From assembly GCA_937910235.1 (NCBI GenBank), contig CALENB010000047.1, forward strand, positions 1 through 64,000: DNA of 64,000 bases, in the 5' to 3' direction. Made by a program: the position numbers and the translations under genes. Origin of the DNA: an uncultured Myxococcales bacterium (lineage in GTDB: Bacteria; Myxococcota_A; UBA9042). This document shows, one piece after another, positions 4,602 to 57,945 of this stretch (positions are counted from its first letter, which is position 1; the number at the start of each line of letters is the position of its first letter). Under the pieces are notes generated by a model. The model was given only the letters and a program-made list of their open reading frames with translations. It was not told the origin of the DNA and searched no databases.

Positions 4602-7600
4602 CTAGCCACCGCAGACGAGCGGTTTGTCCCAGCAACAGTCGCCCGCCGAGGCGCAGAGGGCGTCGCATTGGCACATCTTGGCGGCGTCGTACTTCGCGCC
4701 GCAGATCTTCGCGCACGAGCCGCAGTCGATGGGGCAGCTGCTGCTCTCGCCGGCCTCGCACTTGCCATCGCCGCAGACCTTGCTGCTGCCCGCGAAGTTG
4801 AGCTTCACGTTGACGTGTTGGCAGACGGGCGCCTTGTTCTTGACGTTGAAGAACACCCACCCGGTCTCGTCGAAGTTGAGCAGGCCTGGCGCGTCGGGCT
4901 CCCACTTCAGCTGCCCAGTCTTACCCGTCATGCAGCAGCCGTTGGGCGCGACGCCGCTCACCGCGCTGTTGACGTACGTCTGCGCACCAGCGGGGCATTG
5001 CACCGGCGCGCAGTCCGTCTGATTGGCGCCGCTCAGGCACTGGTAGTAGGCACAGACCGTCACCTCAGAGGCCGCTGCCCAGCTGATGTCAACGACCGGA
5101 TCGACGGCATTAAAGTCGTCAACCACTCGGTATTTCAAGTAATCTACGTCGCTCAAGCCGAGGTGAACGAGCGGCTTGACCATCACCGCGTCCGCGTCGT
5201 CCGCGACGCTACCCAAGTTGATGCTCTCTGACGTCTTGGTCGGGCCCTCCCACTTGTCCGTCGCTTTGCAGAGCGCGTCATTGATCGCGACGCAGCTCCC
5301 CGGCTTGCTGGCGTCAGCCACGACGCACAGCTGCGCGGTTGTGCAGTCGGTCGCCGTGGTCCAGCTCGACCACACCCGATTGGCCGTGGCGGTGCTGCAG
5401 ACCGATGACCCGCCGGTGCAGCCGCCGTAGCTCTTGCGCACCTGCACGTTGCCGCCCGCCTCAAGCGAGCTGCACTGGTAGGCCGTCTCCAGCGCTGAAA
5501 CCCCGCATTTGGTGGCTTTCTTGGCGAAGTTGCCGGCGGCATCACAGCACGCTGCCTTCGGATCACACTGCGTCTTGACCTGCAGCCCAAATCCCAGCTT
5601 GACCCCGACCTCCTGGCAGAAAGGCGCCTTGTTCAGCACGTTGAAGAACACCTCGCCGCTGTTGTTGGCGCTGCCCGGCGTCTGCACCGCGTAGTCGATG
5701 GTGCCCTTGGCCAGCGTGGCGCAGCAGCCATTGACCGTCGCGGCGCTGACCGCGCTGTTCGAGAAAGACAGGGTCCCCGCCGGGCAGACCACATTGGCGC
5801 AGCTCTTGCCGTCTGCGGCCTTGGTGCAGCGGTAGTAGGCGCACACCATGACGGCGCCAGGCGCGCTCCACTCGACGTGCACACGCGGTTCGTGCAGGGG
5901 CGACGAGTCGGTCACCTGGTAGGTCAGGTAGTCCTTATCCGTCGGGCCGTTGAGGTGCACCGTGGGCGAGAGAATCAAGCTCGCAGACGCGTCCGTGTAC
6001 GCGCCGATGGATTTGCTGCTCGCTGTGGCCGGGGTGCCCTCCCATTTGTCGGACTTCTTGCAGTCGACGCCCGGCGCGAGGGCGCAGCCAGGCGATCCAT
6101 CGTCACCGACGGTGCAGACCGTGGTCGACTTGCAGGCGACGTGGGTAGTCCAGGCGCTCCACTTCAGGTTGGTGGCGCTGCAGGTGACTCCGTCGCCGGT
6201 ACATGCGCCCGTCGCCGTGCGCTTCTCCACCGCCAGGCCGTTCGACGCGCAGCGGAACTCGGTGCTCTGCTCGCTCGGACACACCGTGCCCTTGGCGACG
6301 GGCAGGCCGGTCACGGCGCAGCACGCAGCCTTCGGGTCGCACAGCTTCGCGGCCTCGCACGCCCCGCTGACGCCGCCGCTGCTCACGCCGCACACCTCGG
6401 TCGCGGAGCACTGCTTCTTGAGCTTCCATTCGCCCCACGCCAGATAGGCTTCAGCGGAGGAGCAGGTGTCCGAAGCGCCCGTGCAACCGGCCACCGCGTG
6501 CCGCTCGAGCAGCTGGCCGCCGGGCGTCGTGACGCTGCACTTCAGCTCGGTCTTGACCAAGGGGGTGTCGCAAGGGGTCGACTTCGGCGCCACTTTACCC
6601 TGCGCCGTACAGCAGGCGTTCGTCACGGCGGCGTTGCAGCTCGCGCCGACGACCACGCTCACACACTGCCCGGCGACGACCTTGTCCTTCACCTCACACA
6701 CGCTGCCCTTGCCGCACGCCAAGCTCGGCGCCCAGGCGCTCCAGTTCCAGTTGCTCTTCGACACCGAGCAGGTGTTGCTCTTGCCGGTGCAGCCGCGCGT
6801 CGCCTTGCGCGTCAGCACCTTCGCGCCGTCCGTGCTGCAGCTGTACTCACTGGCCTGCACCTCGTCGTCGCACTGGGCGGCGTTGATCTTGATGCGACCA
6901 GCCTTGTCGTCACAGCACGCGCCCGTCGTGCAGGTACACACGGCGGTCACGCTCCAGTCGCTCTGGTTGGCGCCCGGATCGCAGACCAAGCACCCGTCAG
7001 TCGCGTGTTTGGCGCCGCCGCTGTAGCAAGCGCCGCCGATCTTGCAGCCGCCCGCCTTCACCGCGCCGCTGCAGCTGCCGCTCTTGGGGTCGCAGACGCC
7101 GGTTTCACAGGCTGATGGCGCGCTGCAGACCTTCGCCACGTTGCCGCAGACGTTTTTTGCGCACGTGTCGACCGTGCAGGCGTTGCCGTCGTCACAATCA
7201 CTCGCGAAGACGCAGCAGCCCGCTTGGCTTTGGTTGCTGCACTTGCCGCCCGTGCAACTGTCCGTCGTACAGGGGTTGGCGTCGTCACAGTCGCCAACCT
7301 TCGTGCAGCCGCCGCCTGGCGACTGGCACACCGGGGCCACGGTGGCGCTCGACAACGTGCAGGTCTGACCGGTGGCGCAGCTCTGGATCGTCTTCCAGCC
7401 ACCCCACGCCAGGTTGGTCGCGCTGGTGGAGCACGTCGTCGCGCTCGTGCCAGTGCAGCCGGCCAGGGCCTCGCGCTTCTGCACCTGGGCGCCGAGGCAC
7501 TGGTACTCGGTCGCGACCGCCTTGTTGCCGCAAGGGCTCGCTTTGGGCAGCGCGCTGCCGCCGGCGACGTCGCAACACACGCCGCTCGCGCAGCATCCGG

Positions 7601-8663
7601 CCTGCGCCGAGAAGGAGCAGGCGCCCGTCGCCTTGTTGCAGCTCCCGATCTGGCAGGCTGTCGTGGTGGGGCAGGCCGCGTCGCTCGTGCAGCAGCCGCT
7701 CTTGCTGTTGCCCACGCAGGCGCCCTTCGCGTCGCACATGTCGCCCGTCGTGCAGATCTGGCCGTCCGTGCAGGCGGTGCCAGCTGATTTCAGGGTCCAC
7801 TGCTTGCTGTCTTGCTTCGCGTCACACACCGCACACGCGCTGCCGCCGGTGGCGCCATCGGCCACGCAGCTGCCGTCAATCGCGCAGAATCCAGCCTTCG
7901 CGGCGTGGGCGCATTGGCCCTTGGCGTCGCAGCTGTCGGTCGTGCAGCTGAGCTTGTCGTCGCAATCGCTCGCCGTCTTGCAGCAGCCGCTACCGACGCA
8001 GCCACACACCGTCTTCAGGTCCTTGCAGCAGTCGCCCGCTGTGGTGCAGTAGCTGTCGCATTGGCACGACGCCTTGGAGTCGTAGTCCCCGCAACGGCCG
8101 GCGCAGCTGTTCGGGCTGGTGATGACCCCGCCGTCTGATGAATCCGGCGTCACGTCGGAGTCGGCCGAAAGTCCCGTGTCCTGCCCGAGATCGGAGCCAC
8201 CGCCATCCGGCGCGCCCGCGTCGATCGTCGCGTCTGCGACGGCCGTATCGGGCTGGAGCGTGTCCGTCGGCTCGACGTCGGGCGCCGCAACGTCGCCCTG
8301 CGTGGTGTCGGGATCCGCGGTGTCGGGCCCTGCGGTGTCGGCCTCCGCGGTGTCAGCCTCCGCGGTGTCGGGCTGCACGGTGTCGGGCTGCACGGTGTCG
8401 GGCTGCACGGTGTCGGGAAGGGTCACGTCGGTGCCGGCGGTCGCAACGTCCTGGCTGCCCGCATCGGCCACGCCAGCATCGAAGGCGCCGACGCCGTCCA
8501 TGCCCTGGAAGGTGACGTCGCCAACCGGGTCGCCAGCGCCCGTGTCCGTCGGCCCAACGGCCTGCGGGTCGTCGCCGTCGCGCGGTGCGTCATCGCCGCA
8601 CGCGGGAGAGAAGCTGGCCAACATGATCGCGAGCAGCGCTCGCGTCTTCCACGTCTTCTTCAT
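4602..8663 (-). CDS. Very Cys-rich modular predicted lipoprotein (1353 aa) with somatomedin-B-like motifs near N-terminus and at C-terminus
   Basis: Lipobox FSPAC; Asp/Thr/Pro low-complexity linker; CAGRCGDYDSKASCQCDSYCTTAGDCCKDLKTVC and C-terminal CAKICGAKYDAAKMCQCDALCASAGDCCWDKPLVC; repeated Cys modules. Confidence 0.85.
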   Translation of the reverse strand: MKKTWKTRALLAIMLASFSPACGDDAPRDGDDPQAVGPTDTGAGDPVGDVTFQGMDGVGAFDAGVADAGSQDVATAGTDVTLPDTVQPDTVQPDTVQPDTAEADTAEADTAGPDTADPDTTQGDVAAPDVEPTDTLQPDTAVADATIDAGAPDGGGSDLGQDTGLSADSDVTPDSSDGGVITSPNSCAGRCGDYDSKASCQCDSYCTTAGDCCKDLKTVCGCVGSGCCKTASDCDDKLSCTTDSCDAKGQCAHAAKAGFCAIDGSCVADGATGGSACAVCDAKQDSKQWTLKSAGTACTDGQICTTGDMCDAKGACVGNSKSGCCTSDAACPTTTACQIGSCNKATGACSFSAQAGCCASGVCCDVAGGSALPKASPCGNKAVATEYQCLGAQVQKREALAGCTGTSATTCSTSATNLAWGGWKTIQSCATGQTCTLSSATVAPVCQSPGGGCTKVGDCDDANPCTTDSCTGGKCSNQSQAGCCVFASDCDDGNACTVDTCAKNVCGNVAKVCSAPSACETGVCDPKSGSCSGAVKAGGCKIGGACYSGGAKHATDGCLVCDPGANQSDWSVTAVCTCTTGACCDDKAGRIKINAAQCDDEVQASEYSCSTDGAKVLTRKATRGCTGKSNTCSVSKSNWNWSAWAPSLACGKGSVCEVKDKVVAGQCVSVVVGASCNAAVTNACCTAQGKVAPKSTPCDTPLVKTELKCSVTTPGGQLLERHAVAGCTGASDTCSSAEAYLAWGEWKLKKQCSATEVCGVSSGGVSGACEAAKLCDPKAACCAVTGLPVAKGTVCPSEQSTEFRCASNGLAVEKRTATGACTGDGVTCSATNLKWSAWTTHVACKSTTVCTVGDDGSPGCALAPGVDCKKSDKWEGTPATASSKSIGAYTDASASLILSPTVHLNGPTDKDYLTYQVTDSSPLHEPRVHVEWSAPGAVMVCAYYRCTKAADGKSCANVVCPAGTLSFSNSAVSAATVNGCCATLAKGTIDYAVQTPGSANNSGEVFFNVLNKAPFCQEVGVKLGFGLQVKTQCDPKAACCDAAGNFAKKATKCGVSALETAYQCSSLEAGGNVQVRKSYGGCTGGSSVCSTATANRVWSSWTTATDCTTAQLCVVADASKPGSCVAINDALCKATDKWEGPTKTSESINLGSVADDADAVMVKPLVHLGLSDVDYLKYRVVDDFNAVDPVVDISWAAASEVTVCAYYQCLSGANQTDCAPVQCPAGAQTYVNSAVSGVAPNGCCMTGKTGQLKWEPDAPGLLNFDETGWVFFNVKNKAPVCQHVNVKLNFAGSSKVCGDGKCEAGESSSCPIDCGSCAKICGAKYDAAKMCQCDALCASAGDCCWDKPLVCGG
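8371..8415. repeat. 15-bp perfect tandem repeat x3 (encodes PDTVQ on minus strand)
   Basis: ggctgcacggtgtcg repeated three times. Confidence 0.9.
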
Positions 8664-50281: not shown

Positions 50282-53200
50282 CTACTTGAGTCCCAGCAGA
50301 CCTGAGATCCACTGGTAAAATCCGAACTTCGCGGTGTACTTCGTGCTAGCCGCTGCGCCACCGACGGGCGTGCCACCGGCGAAAGCCCTGATCGTCAGCT
50401 TGCCAGCGGTGCCCGCTACGACGGCGTTACCGTTCCGCGCCAGGAACGCGGTCGGAGCGCAGCCCTCATCGACAACGCCGCTGCAGCTGTTGTCCTTGCC
50501 GTCACAGATCTCGTTGGCCGGCTTCGTGTCGCCGACGCAGGTCCCGAGCGTGCCGTCCGCGGCGCACTTCTGCACGCCGTCGTCGCACAGACCCACCTTT
50601 CGCGTCTTGGGCGGTCCGGTGTAGCAGGCCACCGACAGGTTGGTGTTGACGGCGTTGCTGCAGCCCTTGTCTTTGTCGCAGGCGTCTTCGGTGCACGGGT
50701 TGCCGTCGTTGCACGTCAGCGCCTTGCCGCTCACGCAGGACCACGCCCCGACGCTGTCCGTGGCGCAAACGTCACCCGATGTACACGCGTTGTTGTCCGA
50801 GCACGACTGGATGAGTGGCTTCGTCCCGCACTTGCCGGTCTGCTTGTCGCAGCTGTCCGCCGTGCACGGGTTACCGTCATCGCAGTTTGTATTTTTACCA
50901 GCCTCGCACTTGCCCAACACGCACTTGTCGCCAGCGGTGCAGGCGTCGCCGTCCGCGTCGCAGGTGCCACCCTGGGCGGTGTGGACACACCCCTGCTTCG
51001 GGTCGCAGCTGTCCGCGGTGCACGGGTTGCCGTCATCGCACTTCAACAGCGTCCCAGACAAACATTTGCCCGACTTGCAGGCGTCTTGCGTCGTGCACAG
51101 CGAACCGTCCGCATCACAGGGGGTGCCGGTCGCCTTGACGTCCTGCTCGCACTTGCCGGTCTTCACCGCGCACGCTGTCTTCAGGCAGTAGTTGTCCGCG
51201 CTCAGGTCGCATTTCACGATCGTCACCGGGTTCACCTTGCACTCGTTGTTGGTGTCGCAGTACAGCGTGCCATTGCACAGGTTGCCGTCCTCTTTCGCGG
51301 CGCAGTCCGTATCCTTTGTGCAGGCGCAGGTGTTGACACCGCTCTGGCAGAGACCCTTCACGCAGGCGTCATTCTGGGTGCAGCTGTTGCCGTCGTCGCA
51401 GCTCTTGTTGACCAGCGCGGTGTTCGTGCAGCCGGTCTTCGGGTCGCACGCGTCGATGGTGCACTGGTTGCTGTCGTCGCAGGTCTTGGAGACGTTGACC
51501 GCCTGGCCCTTGCAGACGCCACCCTGGCAGCTGTCGCCGGTCGTGCAGGCGTCGCCATCTGAGCAGGCGCCTGAGAGCGGCGTGTTGACGCAGCCCTCCT
51601 TCGGATCGCACGAGTCGCTTGTACACGCGTTCTTGTCGTCGCAGTTGAGCAGGGCGCCTGGCTTGCAGAGCCCCGCAGCGCACGCATCGCCGGAGGTGCA
51701 GACGTTGTCGTCGGCCTTGCAGGGCGTGCCGTCGGTCTGCTTGAGGATCTCACACTTGCCGGTCTTGGCGTTGCAGCCGTTTGTTTGGCAGGTGCTGTTC
51801 ACGGACTTGTCGCACGTGACGATCGTGCCGGGGTTGACCTTGCAGCTGAAGGGTTGCGCGCTCTTGTCGCAGTACAGCGTGCCGTTGCAGACGTTGCCAT
51901 CCTCAGACGACGCGCAGTCCGTGTTCGACGTACAGCCACACGTGTTCACGCCGCTGTTGCAGGTGCCGCCCTTGCAGTAGTCGCTCTTGGTGCAGGCGTT
52001 GCCATCGTCGCAGGTCGCGGCGTCGTCAGGCGTGCTCACGCAACCCTTCTGCGGGTTGCAGCTCTCGATGGTGCAGACGTTGTTGTCGTCGCACTTCTTC
52101 TTCGGGTCGAACACAGTACCCGCGCACAGCCCCTTGCTACAGGTGTCCTTCTCGGTGCAGGCGTTGCCGTCATCACACGCCTGACCCGACGTTACGGGCG
52201 AAAAGACGCAACCCTTGTCCTTGTCACACTGGTCCTGGGTACACGGGTTCTTGTCATTGCAGACGATGGCGGTGGGCCCAAAGCAGGTGTAGACGCCGAT
52301 GGTTGGCTCTTTTCCGCACTGGTCATCGGAGGTGCAGGCGTTGCCATCGTCGCATTTGTCGACGATCGGGGCGTGCAGGCACTTGCCGGTCTTCGGGTCA
52401 CAGGCGTCCTTCGTGCACGACTCTTTGTCGTCACAGTCCGCCGTCGTACCCGTCACACACGTCGCCGATTGGCAACTGTCGCCGCTGGTGCACAAGCTGT
52501 CGTCGGCATCACACGGGTTCGTGTTCGCCTTGTGCGCGCAGCCCTGCTTGGGGTCGCAGCTGTCGTCGGTGCAAGGGTTCTTGTCATCACAGCTGACGGG
52601 CGCGCCCTGAAGGCACTTGCCGCCATTGCAGGCGTCGTTCTCGGTGCAGACGTTATTGTCGGCATCGCACGCCTTACCCTTGACCTCTTGCGTGATGCTG
52701 CACTGACCGTCCTTAGGATTGCAGGCGTTGTTCTGGCAGGCGTTGTTCAGGCTTGTGTCGCACGTGACCTTGCTGCCTGGCTTGAGCTCACACTGGAACG
52801 GCTGCTTCGACGTGTCGCAGTACAACGTGCCATTGCAGAGGTTGCCGTCTTCCTTCGACGCACACTGCGCGTCGTTGGTGCAGCCGCACGTGTTGACGCC
52901 CGACTTGCACTTACCCGCATCGCAGCTGTCGTTCAGGGTGCACGCGTTTCCGTCATCGCAGCTGCCCGACGTCTTCGCGGCGTTGACGCAGCCGGTGTCG
53001 GCCGCGCAGGTGTCGAGTGTACAGTCGTTGTTGTCGTCGCACGTGCCGGTCACGTCGATCGCGAGCCCTAGGCACTTGCCGTCTTTGCAGCTGTCCTGCT
53101 GCGTACACTTCGAGTCGTCATCGCACGGGCCGGCAGCCGCCTTGTGCGCGCAACCCTGTTTCGTGGGGTCGCAGCTGTCGACAGTGCAGGTGTTCTTGTC

Positions 53201-54559
53201 GTCGCAGTCGAGCGCCGCGCCCTTGCAGACGTCGCCCTTGCAGATCTCGCCGGACGTGCAGGGGTTGCCGTCATTGCAGGCGTCGCCGTCTTTGTTGGTG
53301 TAGTTGCAGGTGCCGTCCTTGATGTCGCACTTGCCGAGGATGCAGACGTCGCCGCTGTCGCAGGCCTTTTTGTCACCGGCGGCGCACTTGCCGCTCTTGC
53401 ACACGTCGTTGACGCTGCACGGATTGTCGTCCGCGTTACACGGGATGTTGGACGTGTCCTTGTGTACGCAGCCGAGCTTGGCCTCGCACGAATCCTCAGT
53501 GCACGGGTTGCCGTCATCACACTTCATCGCTGCGCCCGCTGCACATTTGCCGTCTTTGCAGGTGTCAGCCTCGGTGCAGACGGAGCCATCGGCGTCACAA
53601 GGCTGCCCAGAATCATTGGTGTACTTACAGCCCTCGCTGCCACCGCAAGCGTCCTTGGTGCACGGGTTGCCGTCGTCGCAGGTGTCTTTGTCGGTATCGC
53701 CGTTGCAGTCGTTGTCGAGGCCGTCGCAGGTCTCAGTGGCGGGCTCGGGCGTGTCACATGCCGACAAGCCGCCGCCTTTTGGTGCGCCAGTGGCGCCGTC
53801 CGCCAGACACTTGCGGGTGCCGCGGCACTTTCCACCGTTTGGGTGGCTCGCGAGGCAGAAGGTTTTGAACTCGTTCTTCATCGCCACGTCTGAGCACACG
53901 CAGCTCTCGCCCTTCGGGAGCACGCACTGCTTCACCTTGGCGCCGGTCACGTCCGTCACCTCGTCGCAGCTGTAGCCCTTCGCGCAGTCCGCGGCCGCCG
54001 CGCAGGACGTGCCGCAGAAGCCGCCCTCGTCACCGCGATCGATGCACGCGCCGTCGACCGAACCCAGGCCTGTGCACTGCTCATTTTTCTCGCATGGATT
54101 GCACAACGAAGCGAACTTCAGCGCGCAGATCTTGTCCTTGTTGCTGCCCTTGCCCTGGACCTCCACGCACGTCTGATCGTCGGGGCAGGTGCCGTCCGCG
54201 CAGGTCTTAGCGCAGATCTGCACGCCGCCGCTCTCGACGCAGTGGCCCGAATAACAGGCGTCATTGTTCTTGCAGAGACAGCCCGTCGCGCCGGGGCAAA
54301 CAGGGCCGGTATCCGTCCCGCCAGCGTCGCCGATGCCACCGGTGTCGCCACCGCTGTCGCTCGCGAACGTGTCCACGCCGCCGCCGATGTCCTCGGTCGT
54401 GTCGGCGATCGTGCCGGTGTCGGCCGAGACCCCACTGTCCTCGCCCTTTGTGCCTTCCACGCCACTGTCATCGCCGCAGCCGACGGCACCGGCCGTGACG
54501 AGCAACAACACCGCGCAACAACGCGCCGCAGACACCGTAAGATTCCGCATCGTCTTCAC
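50282..54559 (-). CDS. 1425-aa Cys-rich repeat predicted lipoprotein (CDDGNPCT-type array with MopE-like motifs)
   Basis: Lipobox VTAGAVGC; many tandem CDDGNPCTxDSCDxxxGC...CDADxxxCTxxDxCxxGxC units; CDGLDNDCNGDTD and CDGKDNSCSGVVDEGC. Confidence 0.85.
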   Translation of the reverse strand: MKTMRNLTVSAARCCAVLLLVTAGAVGCGDDSGVEGTKGEDSGVSADTGTIADTTEDIGGGVDTFASDSGGDTGGIGDAGGTDTGPVCPGATGCLCKNNDACYSGHCVESGGVQICAKTCADGTCPDDQTCVEVQGKGSNKDKICALKFASLCNPCEKNEQCTGLGSVDGACIDRGDEGGFCGTSCAAAADCAKGYSCDEVTDVTGAKVKQCVLPKGESCVCSDVAMKNEFKTFCLASHPNGGKCRGTRKCLADGATGAPKGGGLSACDTPEPATETCDGLDNDCNGDTDKDTCDDGNPCTKDACGGSEGCKYTNDSGQPCDADGSVCTEADTCKDGKCAAGAAMKCDDGNPCTEDSCEAKLGCVHKDTSNIPCNADDNPCSVNDVCKSGKCAAGDKKACDSGDVCILGKCDIKDGTCNYTNKDGDACNDGNPCTSGEICKGDVCKGAALDCDDKNTCTVDSCDPTKQGCAHKAAAGPCDDDSKCTQQDSCKDGKCLGLAIDVTGTCDDNNDCTLDTCAADTGCVNAAKTSGSCDDGNACTLNDSCDAGKCKSGVNTCGCTNDAQCASKEDGNLCNGTLYCDTSKQPFQCELKPGSKVTCDTSLNNACQNNACNPKDGQCSITQEVKGKACDADNNVCTENDACNGGKCLQGAPVSCDDKNPCTDDSCDPKQGCAHKANTNPCDADDSLCTSGDSCQSATCVTGTTADCDDKESCTKDACDPKTGKCLHAPIVDKCDDGNACTSDDQCGKEPTIGVYTCFGPTAIVCNDKNPCTQDQCDKDKGCVFSPVTSGQACDDGNACTEKDTCSKGLCAGTVFDPKKKCDDNNVCTIESCNPQKGCVSTPDDAATCDDGNACTKSDYCKGGTCNSGVNTCGCTSNTDCASSEDGNVCNGTLYCDKSAQPFSCKVNPGTIVTCDKSVNSTCQTNGCNAKTGKCEILKQTDGTPCKADDNVCTSGDACAAGLCKPGALLNCDDKNACTSDSCDPKEGCVNTPLSGACSDGDACTTGDSCQGGVCKGQAVNVSKTCDDSNQCTIDACDPKTGCTNTALVNKSCDDGNSCTQNDACVKGLCQSGVNTCACTKDTDCAAKEDGNLCNGTLYCDTNNECKVNPVTIVKCDLSADNYCLKTACAVKTGKCEQDVKATGTPCDADGSLCTTQDACKSGKCLSGTLLKCDDGNPCTADSCDPKQGCVHTAQGGTCDADGDACTAGDKCVLGKCEAGKNTNCDDGNPCTADSCDKQTGKCGTKPLIQSCSDNNACTSGDVCATDSVGAWSCVSGKALTCNDGNPCTEDACDKDKGCSNAVNTNLSVACYTGPPKTRKVGLCDDGVQKCAADGTLGTCVGDTKPANEICDGKDNSCSGVVDEGCAPTAFLARNGNAVVAGTAGKLTIRAFAGGTPVGGAAASTKYTAKFGFYQWISGLLGLK

Positions 54560-54765: not shown

Positions 54766-56520
54766 CTACTTGCACACGGGCGGTGAGGTCTTCATCGACA
54801 AGAAACACGACGTCCCAGCCGAACACACCTTGTAGCTCTGCCACGCCTCAGACGCAGGCTGGCTTTGCGAGCACTTGTTCGCCTCTTCTGGCTTGCCGGT
54901 GCAGCCTGGGAAGAGCTTTCGCTTGAAGCCGTTGCCACCTTCGCACTTGTACTCCGCGCCGATGCTGAAGGTGCTGCACTGGGTCCCGAGCGGCTTCAGC
55001 TTGCCAGCCGGGATGTCACAGCAAACGCCGGCGGAGCAACAGCTCGGGTCTGGTTGTGTGGCACACACACCGTCGCCCTTGCACACGACCTTCTCGCACG
55101 CCTCGGGGTTCACCTTGCCTACGCAATCTGCGTCGCTCTTGCAGCAGTTCGGCTCCGTCTTGCCTTTGCAGAGGCCGTCGGCAATGCAGAGCGTGTCGAT
55201 GCTGCAGGGGTCGTCGTCAGCGCACGCGGTGCCGACTTTCTTCGCTGTCCAGGCCGTCACCGACTTGCTGGTGTCGCAGGTCTGGCAGCCAAATGCCCCA
55301 GGCTTGCTGGCTCCGGTCGCGACACACACGCCGTCGATGACACAGAATCCAGGCTTAGGTGTCAGCGTCGCCGACGACTTCGTCGGATCGCAGACGGCGC
55401 AGCTCGCGGCCGGGTCGCCAGCGCCGGTGTCGTAGCACTTATCACCTACAGCGCACTTGCCGCTCACGCCGCTCCAGCCCGTCTGCGATTGGCTGGGTTG
55501 GCAGCTGGCGCAGTTGGGGTTGGCCAAGCTCGTGGCGCCACTCAAGTGGCACTTGCCGTCGATGAGGCACGCGCCGCTGGCGACGCTCCACGTCCCCGTG
55601 TCCTTGCTGGGATCGCACACCCTGCACTCGCCGACGCTGGTCGACGCGGGCTCACCGCTCTTGCTGCAGATCCCGTCGATCAGGCAGGTCCCGGGCTTCG
55701 AGGTCCATGCGTCCGGGGCCTTGTCGGGCTGACACAGGACGCAGCCGCCGCTGCCCGGTTTACTGGCGCCCGCGCCGTGGCAAGCGCCGTCGATCAGACA
55801 CTTGGTGGACGACAGCTTGTGCGAACAGTCACCGGTGGTCGGGTCGCAGGCGTCGATCGTGCAGTCGACACCGTCATTGCAGTCCTTCTCTACGTCGCTG
55901 CACGTACCCTGGAGGCAGGTCGGCGTGATGCACTTGTTCTTGCCGGCCGTGCCGCAGGCCGCGTCCGAGTTACAGCAGCCAAAGAACGGCAACTGCTTGC
56001 ACCACTTCTTGCCGTCGCTCGTGGTGGCGCATTTGTCGCTCGTACACTGGTTGCCATCGTCGCAGTCACTCAGCGTCTCGCAGCTGCAGGCCGCCGTGAA
56101 GTCCGCGCAGCAGTCGCTTCGCGCGATGCAGCCGTGGTCGCAGTGGCAAGCGTTGGCCTCGAGGTTGATGCCGCAGGAGCCGGCGCAGCTCGTGATCGCG
56201 ACAGGTCCCGTGTCGGGCGGTCCCCCGTCACCTGACGTCGCATCCAGGCCGTCGGTGTCGGCGCTGGCGAGACCGTCACCGATGACCACGTCGACCGAAG
56301 GTTCGACCGTGTCGAGGCTCGTGGCGTCGGAGCTGGTGTCTTGCTGAAACGTCCACCCGGACGTGTCCCCGCCAGCATCCGCGACGGCGAAATCAAGGCT
56401 GTAGACGGTGGCGTCCTTCTTCGTGCTGTCGTCTTCGCCGCACGCGGAGACGATCAAGCAGAGCGCGAACGCGCAGGTAGCGGAGAACTGACCGGTGCTG
56501 GTGGAGTTGATTCGACGCAT
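54766..56520 (-). CDS. Cys-rich modular predicted lipoprotein with somatomedin-B-like motif
   Basis: Lipobox LIVSAC; CAGSCGINLEANACHCDHGCIARSDCCADFTAAC; five CxIDGxC/CxxC units (one reads CAVGDKC); C-terminal CC...GCTG module. Confidence 0.82.
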   Translation of the reverse strand: MRRINSTSTGQFSATCAFALCLIVSACGEDDSTKKDATVYSLDFAVADAGGDTSGWTFQQDTSSDATSLDTVEPSVDVVIGDGLASADTDGLDATSGDGGPPDTGPVAITSCAGSCGINLEANACHCDHGCIARSDCCADFTAACSCETLSDCDDGNQCTSDKCATTSDGKKWCKQLPFFGCCNSDAACGTAGKNKCITPTCLQGTCSDVEKDCNDGVDCTIDACDPTTGDCSHKLSSTKCLIDGACHGAGASKPGSGGCVLCQPDKAPDAWTSKPGTCLIDGICSKSGEPASTSVGECRVCDPSKDTGTWSVASGACLIDGKCHLSGATSLANPNCASCQPSQSQTGWSGVSGKCAVGDKCYDTGAGDPAASCAVCDPTKSSATLTPKPGFCVIDGVCVATGASKPGAFGCQTCDTSKSVTAWTAKKVGTACADDDPCSIDTLCIADGLCKGKTEPNCCKSDADCVGKVNPEACEKVVCKGDGVCATQPDPSCCSAGVCCDIPAGKLKPLGTQCSTFSIGAEYKCEGGNGFKRKLFPGCTGKPEEANKCSQSQPASEAWQSYKVCSAGTSCFLSMKTSPPVCK

Positions 56521-56595
56521 GGCGCGCGCCATTGTACGGGTTCCGCCAACACAGGCAACCAGGGGCCGATCAAAGTGACGAACCATGTCGGACGT

Positions 56596-57945
56596 GTGCT
56601 CAGCCTGCGCCATCGCCCAACGGCACGAGAGAGCCACGGCTCTGCTGCGGCCTGCAGCCGGTGGTCTGTGCACGGTCGGGGCCAGAAGCGCCGTCGGCTG
56701 GGTCCGCGGCAGGGTCGCCGGCTGCGAGGCCGGATCGCCGGCCTGCTAGCGCTGCTCGGCTGTTTCTGCGGCCCCGTGGCGGGTCACGCCCACCTCATCG
56801 ATGAGGTGGCTGAGAGCATCGTGGTCGACATCCGCACGCTGGATCGGCGCCTATTCGAGTTGACGTTTGTCCTGCACTCCGAGCGGCTTGAGGCCTACTT
56901 CCATCAAGCGGAGCAGCTCGGCATCGACACGAAACGCAGTGATCTAGGGTTCGCCCAGAGGTTGGCCGCTGGGTTTCGTTTCGGGGCGTGTGAGCTGAAG
57001 CCAGCGCCGACCGGCGCCGTGGCCAGGCCTGTACGCGGCGGGCGATTTCGAGCCTTTCGGCTGGTGGCTCGGTGCGACGCTCCGGTTGAACACGCCTTGC
57101 TTGCCCGGGCCGACTACGACCGCGCAAAGACGCGCACGACGCTCTATCTCACTGTGCGCGTCGGGGACACGCCGACCCGGCGGTTGTTGCTGCCGCCGCG
57201 GCTGTCTGGGCTCGACGTCCCACTCACAGGCGGTGCACCCCACACGATGGCGGCGAGCCCGAAACGGCGCGCCGGGCCGCCGGCGCAGCGCACCCCGTCG
57301 CCAGCGGATCCGGTGGACTTGTCGCACCTGCCTACGGCCGCGACCGCCACATCGGCCTGGCGTCGATCCCTCACACCACCGCCAGCTCGCATCCTGCAGA
57401 TCTGGGCGGAGTCGGGCGCGCGGCACCTCGCGGGCGGGCTGGATCACCTCCTCTTCTTGCTGGCGCTCACGCTCGCCGCGCTGCGCTACCCACGTCTCGT
57501 GCTCGGCGCGATGGCGTTCTCCGTGGGTCACATGCTGACGATGGCCGCGGCGATCGCCTGGGCCTGGCCCCCCGTCGCCGCGATCGAGGTCGCCATCGGG
57601 CTCAGCATCGTGTGGTCCGCTTGGCGAGCGCGACAGCCGGGGCTAGGCCGCGCCGAGCTGCTGGGCGCGTTTGCGTTCGGCCTGATCCACGGCACCGCGT
57701 TTGGCACCGAGCTGCGTCACCTCGTCGGCGGCAGCGAGGGCTTGCTCTGGCCGGTGCTGTCGTTCGGCGTAGGACTCGACGTCGCGCAGCTGCTCTGGAT
57801 CAGCGTCGCGTTTGTGCTGTGGACCCCGATTCGCAGGCGGATTGCGCCCAAACAACCGCTACCGGCGGCGCAACGCATCGCCGGTGCGCTGCTCATCGCC
57901 GCCGGGCTGGCGTTCGCCATGCGCGCCGTGTGGCGTGCGCTCTAG
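56596..57945 (+). CDS. HupE/UreJ-like membrane protein
   Basis: Signal-like segment then GARHLAGGLDHLLFLLALTLAALRYPRLVLGAMAFSVGHMLTM...GLIHGTAFGTEL; start codon uncertain. Confidence 0.75.
   Translation: MLSLRHRPTARESHGSAAACSRWSVHGRGQKRRRLGPRQGRRLRGRIAGLLALLGCFCGPVAGHAHLIDEVAESIVVDIRTLDRRLFELTFVLHSERLEAYFHQAEQLGIDTKRSDLGFAQRLAAGFRFGACELKPAPTGAVARPVRGGRFRAFRLVARCDAPVEHALLARADYDRAKTRTTLYLTVRVGDTPTRRLLLPPRLSGLDVPLTGGAPHTMAASPKRRAGPPAQRTPSPADPVDLSHLPTAATATSAWRRSLTPPPARILQIWAESGARHLAGGLDHLLFLLALTLAALRYPRLVLGAMAFSVGHMLTMAAAIAWAWPPVAAIEVAIGLSIVWSAWRARQPGLGRAELLGAFAFGLIHGTAFGTELRHLVGGSEGLLWPVLSFGVGLDVAQLLWISVAFVLWTPIRRRIAPKQPLPAAQRIAGALLIAAGLAFAMRAVWRAL

Follow-up and report, generated by a model that had tools for sequence, protein, structure and literature searches.

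Somatomedin B (SMB) is taught as a module of animal extracellular proteins, and the general role of animal SMB domains is compact protein binding. Serpins are the partner family of the vitronectin SMB, which binds PAI-1, and Tyr27 and Tyr28 of vitronectin are binding residues of this SMB. Among surface proteins of Myxococcota, TraA of Myxococcus xanthus combines a variable domain with Cys-rich repeats and a MYXO-CTERM (PMC13184517). A search of PMC, with subscription journals lying outside it, found no paper joining 'somatomedin B' with myxococc*. Papers joining somatomedin B with bacteria or prokaryotes concern, by title and abstract, animal vitronectin or other matters, and none about bacterial SMB was among the matches listed for PF01033. 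Bacterial members may be listed without discussion in domain databases.

Here we analyze a 64,000-nucleotide stretch of DNA (the window; contig CALENB010000047.1) from an uncultured Myxococcales bacterium. A sequence-only reading of the window had pointed to an SMB-like eight-Cys pattern in the segment 7995-8120 of a supposed lipoprotein, mirrored by a second copy at the extreme C-terminus. Both segments belong to a single protein, P0001, which is compared below with its orthologues, with other bacterial SMB proteins and with the animal domains.

Results

Layout of P0001

P0001 (Table 1) contains 129 Cys, or 9.5% of its residues. The Cys block of the N-terminal SMB (CAGRC...TVC, about 8004-8105) is in frame with that of the C-terminal copy (CAKIC...LVC, about 4611-4715) in one ORF, and after the latter only GG and the stop codon follow. 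P0001 is likely a lipoprotein, as the sequences of its relatives suggest: canonical lipoboxes of two orthologues (SLALLLSAC-GDD in L147, IIAIMSAAGC-GDN in L160) back this part of the earlier reading, although P0001's own FSPAC-GDD is unorthodox. In the Cys-rich array, the Dictyostelium CTDC profile (PF00526) scored 15.6 bits against a cut-off of 27. NCBIfam gave no useful name for P0001, for a second protein of the window or for the paralogue L025, and a promoter and terminator scan gave no signal above shuffles. The neighboring genes in the window code for unrelated kinds of protein (thioesterase, radical SAM, LigB, spermine-synthase-like), and none points to binding as the function of P0001.

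Table 1. P0001, its parts and the third SMB of the window. All lie on the minus strand.
Feature	Positions	Strand	Evidence
Gene for Cys-rich surface (lipo)protein P0001, 1353 aa	4602..8663	-	ORF
Signal peptide, ending before probable lipobox Cys22 (FSPAC-GDD)	8601..8663	-	sequence; canonical lipoboxes in L147, L160
D/T/P/A-rich stalk, ~160 residues, Cys-free beyond the lipobox Cys	8112..8600	-	sequence; fast-diverging
N-terminal SMB, residues ~185-222	8001..8111	-	Pfam, PDB search, AlphaFold/Foldseek, shuffles
Cys-rich array including sub-threshold Dicty_CTDC-like DCDDGNxCTxDxC repeats	6984..8000	-	PF00526 E=0.015
Beta-rich unit A, 162 aa (DKWEG...VKLGF)	5583..6068	-	
Beta-rich unit B, 163 aa, predicted all-beta	4788..5276	-	no convincing PDB relative
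Linker motif CGDGKCEAGESSSCPIDC (CGDGxCxxGESxxCPxDC), ahead of C-terminal SMB	4725..4787	-	sequence; conserved in orthologues
C-terminal SMB, last Cys 2 residues ahead of stop	4608..4718	-	Pfam, PDB search, orthologues
Third SMB, directly after stalk of lipoprotein ORF 54766-56673	56083..56193	-	profile search

P0001 has two copies of the beta-rich unit and L025 has four; the unit, with conserved Cys and an NGCC motif, has neither a Pfam match nor a clear PDB relative. Its model was fair (pTM 0.73) and its Foldseek matches were poor (TM <0.35 to the query); a PPC/collagen-binding-like sandwich would be only a guess. The sequence-only reading counted the two P0001 copies correctly but missed the third SMB of the window, as well as the genome-wide expansion described below. 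Another probable lipoprotein of the window (50282-54559, minus strand; 1425 aa, 187 Cys or 13.1%) is without SMB; in it, 13 stretches match the Dictyostelium CTDC repeat PF00526 (E=1e-57).

Sequence and predicted structure identify SMB domains

The two P0001 segments are genuine, homologous SMB domains. Pfam Somatomedin_B (PF01033) matched the protein in two stretches with E=2.1e-10 and 41.2 bits against a curated cut-off of 23.1, and the N- and C-terminal copies each exceeded this cut-off alone (34.7 and 35.0 bits), which bears out the earlier reading at both ends of the protein. The eight Cys follow the order C-x3-C ... C-x-C-x3-C-x5-CC-x6-C, and the spacing of the first copy, C3C8C1C3C5C0C6C, is close to the C3C9C1C3C5C0C6C of vitronectin and ENDOU domain 1 in the PDB. 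When the N-terminal copy alone was searched against the PDB, the 41 sequences retrieved up to E=1 were all SMB-bearing animal proteins. With a profile built from 77 SMBs of bacteria and archaea, all 43 sequences retrieved were animal SMB proteins, ENDOU ranking best (66 bits) and followed by ENPP3, snake venom phosphodiesterase, ENPP1, ENPP2, vitronectin and SUSD2. None of the 77 rows departed from the eight Cys or from the Asp of CCxD, the latter partly by construction, since the DNA pattern used to collect many of the rows requires this Asp. Apart from a few Asp and Gly, residues between the Cys were variable.

Structure prediction agreed at the level of the fold. An AlphaFold (AF2) model of the domain had a pLDDT of 89, and all 50 Foldseek matches listed were SMB-bearing, with rmsd of 1.0-1.3 A to ENPP1 and 1.2 A to vitronectin (3bt1) and 36-39% identity to these two over about 36 superposed columns; with so small a domain, E-values were modest (best 0.008). 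Superposition, together with the Cys register in alignments, suggests that P0001 has the disulfide topology of SMB.

SMB is a standard module of a Myxococcota family

Profile searches of the window's genome (7.1 Mb, 593 contigs) found 33 SMBs over the cut-off, counted in 18 genes. All 22 genomes sampled from the same family encode SMB, with 8-35 domains each. More widely, SMB was present in 31 of 36 genomes comprising the window's own and 35 relatives, in 73 of 284 Myxococcota genomes, and over the cut-off in none of 14 control genomes. SMB is thus a standard, multi-copy module of this family and, with dozens of copies per genome across it, not an animal speciality. The earlier observation of an animal-type SMB in a bacterium is true, but not as an odd single case.

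A DNA pattern scan of GTDB genomes yielded at least 110 loci, which were inspected by HMM with the HMMER filters off and nearly all confirmed as SMB. Seven were rejected as Asp/Cys-rich runs or out-of-frame matches (L065, L069, L081, L085, L086, L129 and L130). Most loci were labelled Myxococcales, Polyangiaceae or Deltaproteobacteria; others came from Phycisphaerae (Planctomycetota), Neomarinimicrobiota, Bacteroidota, Nitrospirota, Hydrogenedentota, Woesearchaeota and another DPANN archaeon, and single MAG records from outside Myxococcota may be mis-binned. SMBs over the cut-off were seen in four DPANN archaeal MAGs, three of Woesearchaeota and one of Ca. ainarchaeum (L073, L092, L139 and L150), one of them sitting on a sortilin/BNR propeller. 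Eukaryotic contamination was ruled out by the intron-free bacterial genes, their lipoboxes and their occurrence in tens per genome, as well as by family-wide conservation and contigs up to hundreds of kb.

Conserved bracketing and varied partners

That the bracketing by two SMBs looks architectural, as had been proposed, agrees with its retention: full orthologues in G001 (65% identity) and in G014, of another genus (50%), have both SMBs at the same ends. A truncated orthologue in G003 keeps the C-terminal SMB, and the paralogue L025 has two N-terminal copies and one C-terminal copy. A relative in G009 (46%) has two N-terminal SMBs, with no C-terminal SMB found in the stretch compared. The domains are among the best conserved segments of the orthologues, being 75% and 80% identical in G001 against 63% overall and 64% and 63% in G014 against 48%; the stalk reaches only 35-37%.

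In the window's genome, SMB is joined to CTDC, MAM-like/choice-anchor J, lamin tail, LamG, thrombospondin type 3 (TSP3), CARDB and SNase domains. Partners in other genomes include M4 thermolysin, M12B reprolysin, peptidyl-arginine deiminase, redoxin and a sortilin-type propeller. Two of these proteases, an M12B reprolysin (L099:6416-7909, minus strand) and an M4 thermolysin (L060:4333-6093, plus strand), each end in two SMBs. A lipoprotein of the window's own genome (L021:3117-4184, plus strand) has tandem SMBs followed by a staphylococcal-nuclease domain, and its possible orthologues are ORFs of G001-G003 that have tandem SMBs and a similar length.

Disulfide-forming machinery

The thiol-oxidation set of the window's genome is unusually large. 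It comprises 26 DsbA-family and 3 VKOR matches, which equips this genome to make disulfide-rich SMB proteins. The VKOR matches fall in ORFs of 866, 852 and 428 aa, each of which, judged by contig, place and length, also has a DsbA match. Examples from this set in the genome (G000) are C364, C254, C353, C363, C414 and C40, and several ORFs carry multiple DsbA-like stretches. Between genomes, DsbA and SMB numbers were correlated (Spearman 0.64 in 35 genomes, and 0.65 when the family is left out and 14 genomes remain), a relationship confounded by kinship.

Discussion

We consider it probable that P0001, with its genuine SMBs, is a lipid-anchored surface protein on which these domains are candidate protein-binding knobs. 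In the arrangement we propose, P0001 would be held at the outer surface of this uncultured Myxococcota lineage by its lipobox, from which a flexible D/T/P-rich stalk of about 160 residues would lead to the first SMB knob. Beyond it, a long rod, rich in disulfides and including two beta-rich units, would carry the second knob at the distal tip. Small, protease-resistant and pinned by disulfides, the knobs could bind proteins in cell-cell, cell-matrix or prey contact, and the family may have reused them as accessories of surface proteins and of secreted enzymes. Surface exposure is itself a prediction from this layout. A compact protein-binding knob would suit both the succession of anchor, stalk, knob, rod and knob and the way SMB recurs on many extracellular proteins; together with the role of animal SMBs, these features make binding the most likely function. 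A vitronectin-like mode of binding is unsupported, since no serpin (PF00079) matched in the window's genome and the positions of Tyr27 and Tyr28 align with Thr and Ala in the N-terminal SMB.

Whether these domains might merely resemble SMB, as an unrelated eight-Cys bacterial knot, deserves consideration because the fold is tiny and driven by its Cys, and bacterial-animal identity averages 19% when Cys are left out. We regard such convergence as very improbable. When non-Cys residues were shuffled with Cys fixed (50 shuffles per domain) and scored with an HMM built from eight animal SMBs, the mean fell from 43.3 to 21.7 bits, and 72 of the 77 real domains beat all 50 of their own shuffles. Half of the score against the animal profile therefore comes from residues other than Cys, so that convergence on Cys spacing is insufficient as an explanation and homology is much more likely. 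The predicted fold, the same at about 1 A, argues in the same direction, as do the PDB sequence searches, in which neither the bacterial profile nor the window SMB queries matched any non-SMB protein.

Given homology, the main rival to binding is a structural one, in which each SMB is a rigid disulfide knot that seals an extended Cys-rich rod at its end against proteolysis or fraying and has no specific partner. This possibility, which we hold to be unlikely but worth weighing, draws on the two-ended bracket conserved in orthologues, the variable residues between Cys, and the presence of SMB within 8 residues of the C-terminus in 53 of 109 C-complete SMB ORFs, a fraction that is no unbiased census because the set was gathered partly by DNA pattern. 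Caps at rod ends would account poorly, however, for tandem arrays of up to seven SMBs (L061), for SMBs beside globular enzymes that lack a Cys rod, or for SMB segments better conserved than the rod itself. Next in standing, and decidedly less probable, is a sorting or anchoring tag, a terminal SMB being recognized, like MYXO-CTERM or T9SS tails, by a system for secretion or attachment. Unrelated proteins, among them metalloproteases and a redoxin, do end in SMB with 0-3 residues to spare, as such a tag would. Yet terminal SMBs contain no extra motif, their non-Cys column entropy (2.52 bits) lying near that of internal (2.57) and N-terminal (2.45) copies; a lipobox-like motif, by a simple rule, is already present in 49 of 100 N-complete SMB ORFs; the SMB protein L027 uses a MYXO-CTERM-like tail instead; and of the 20 C-complete SMB genes in the window's own genome, just 5 have SMB at their end.

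The sequence-only reading had called for a phylogeny that would separate transfer from convergence; convergence is disfavored by the shuffles, but the tree gave no direction. In a maximum-likelihood tree of 86 SMBs, animal sequences did not form one clade, and eight of nine fell into a supported sub-group (97/92) with 27 prokaryotic SMBs, including the window's three. This sub-group corresponds to the CQCD long-loop type, to which the window copies belong. We claim no direction of transfer because the alignment has 42 columns, the tree is unrooted and eukaryotes are few, and a 38-residue domain cannot root a tree. That SMB is primarily prokaryotic and centered on Myxococcota, with animal SMBs descending from a bacterial donor, is a tentative idea to which we give minor weight.

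The occurrence of SMB throughout a Myxococcota family, in up to 35 copies per genome and in double-ended and tandem arrangements, changes the range assumed for this domain and supplies a large new sequence set for the study of its evolution. It also suggests a surface system rich in disulfides in these bacterial relatives of multicellular predators. With wider sampling, the direction of SMB movement between bacteria and animals becomes addressable.

SMBs of vitronectin, ENPP1-3, ENDOU and SUSD2 have in common with the bacterial domains the eight-Cys spacing, the CxCD motif, the Asp of CCxD and the predicted fold, and in both groups the domain often stands close to the N-terminus, and tandem copies are frequent. 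Bacterial SMBs differ in their lipoprotein context, in their number per genome and in often lying at the extreme C-terminus. Animal ENPP and ENDOU proteins join tandem SMBs to a phosphodiesterase or ribonuclease, a layout like the tandem SMBs and nuclease domain of L021; the catalytic families differ, however, and the analogy does not imply common descent. The Dictyostelium CTDC repeat is a frequent neighbor of SMB in the window's genome (16 stretches in L026), although it stays below the cut-off in P0001. As proposed for P0001, TraA is a Myxococcota protein that couples a surface recognition module to Cys-rich repeats (PMC13184517). TraA has a MYXO-CTERM and a variable domain, whereas P0001 has a probable N-terminal lipid anchor and SMB knobs, and the likeness is drawn at the level of layout.
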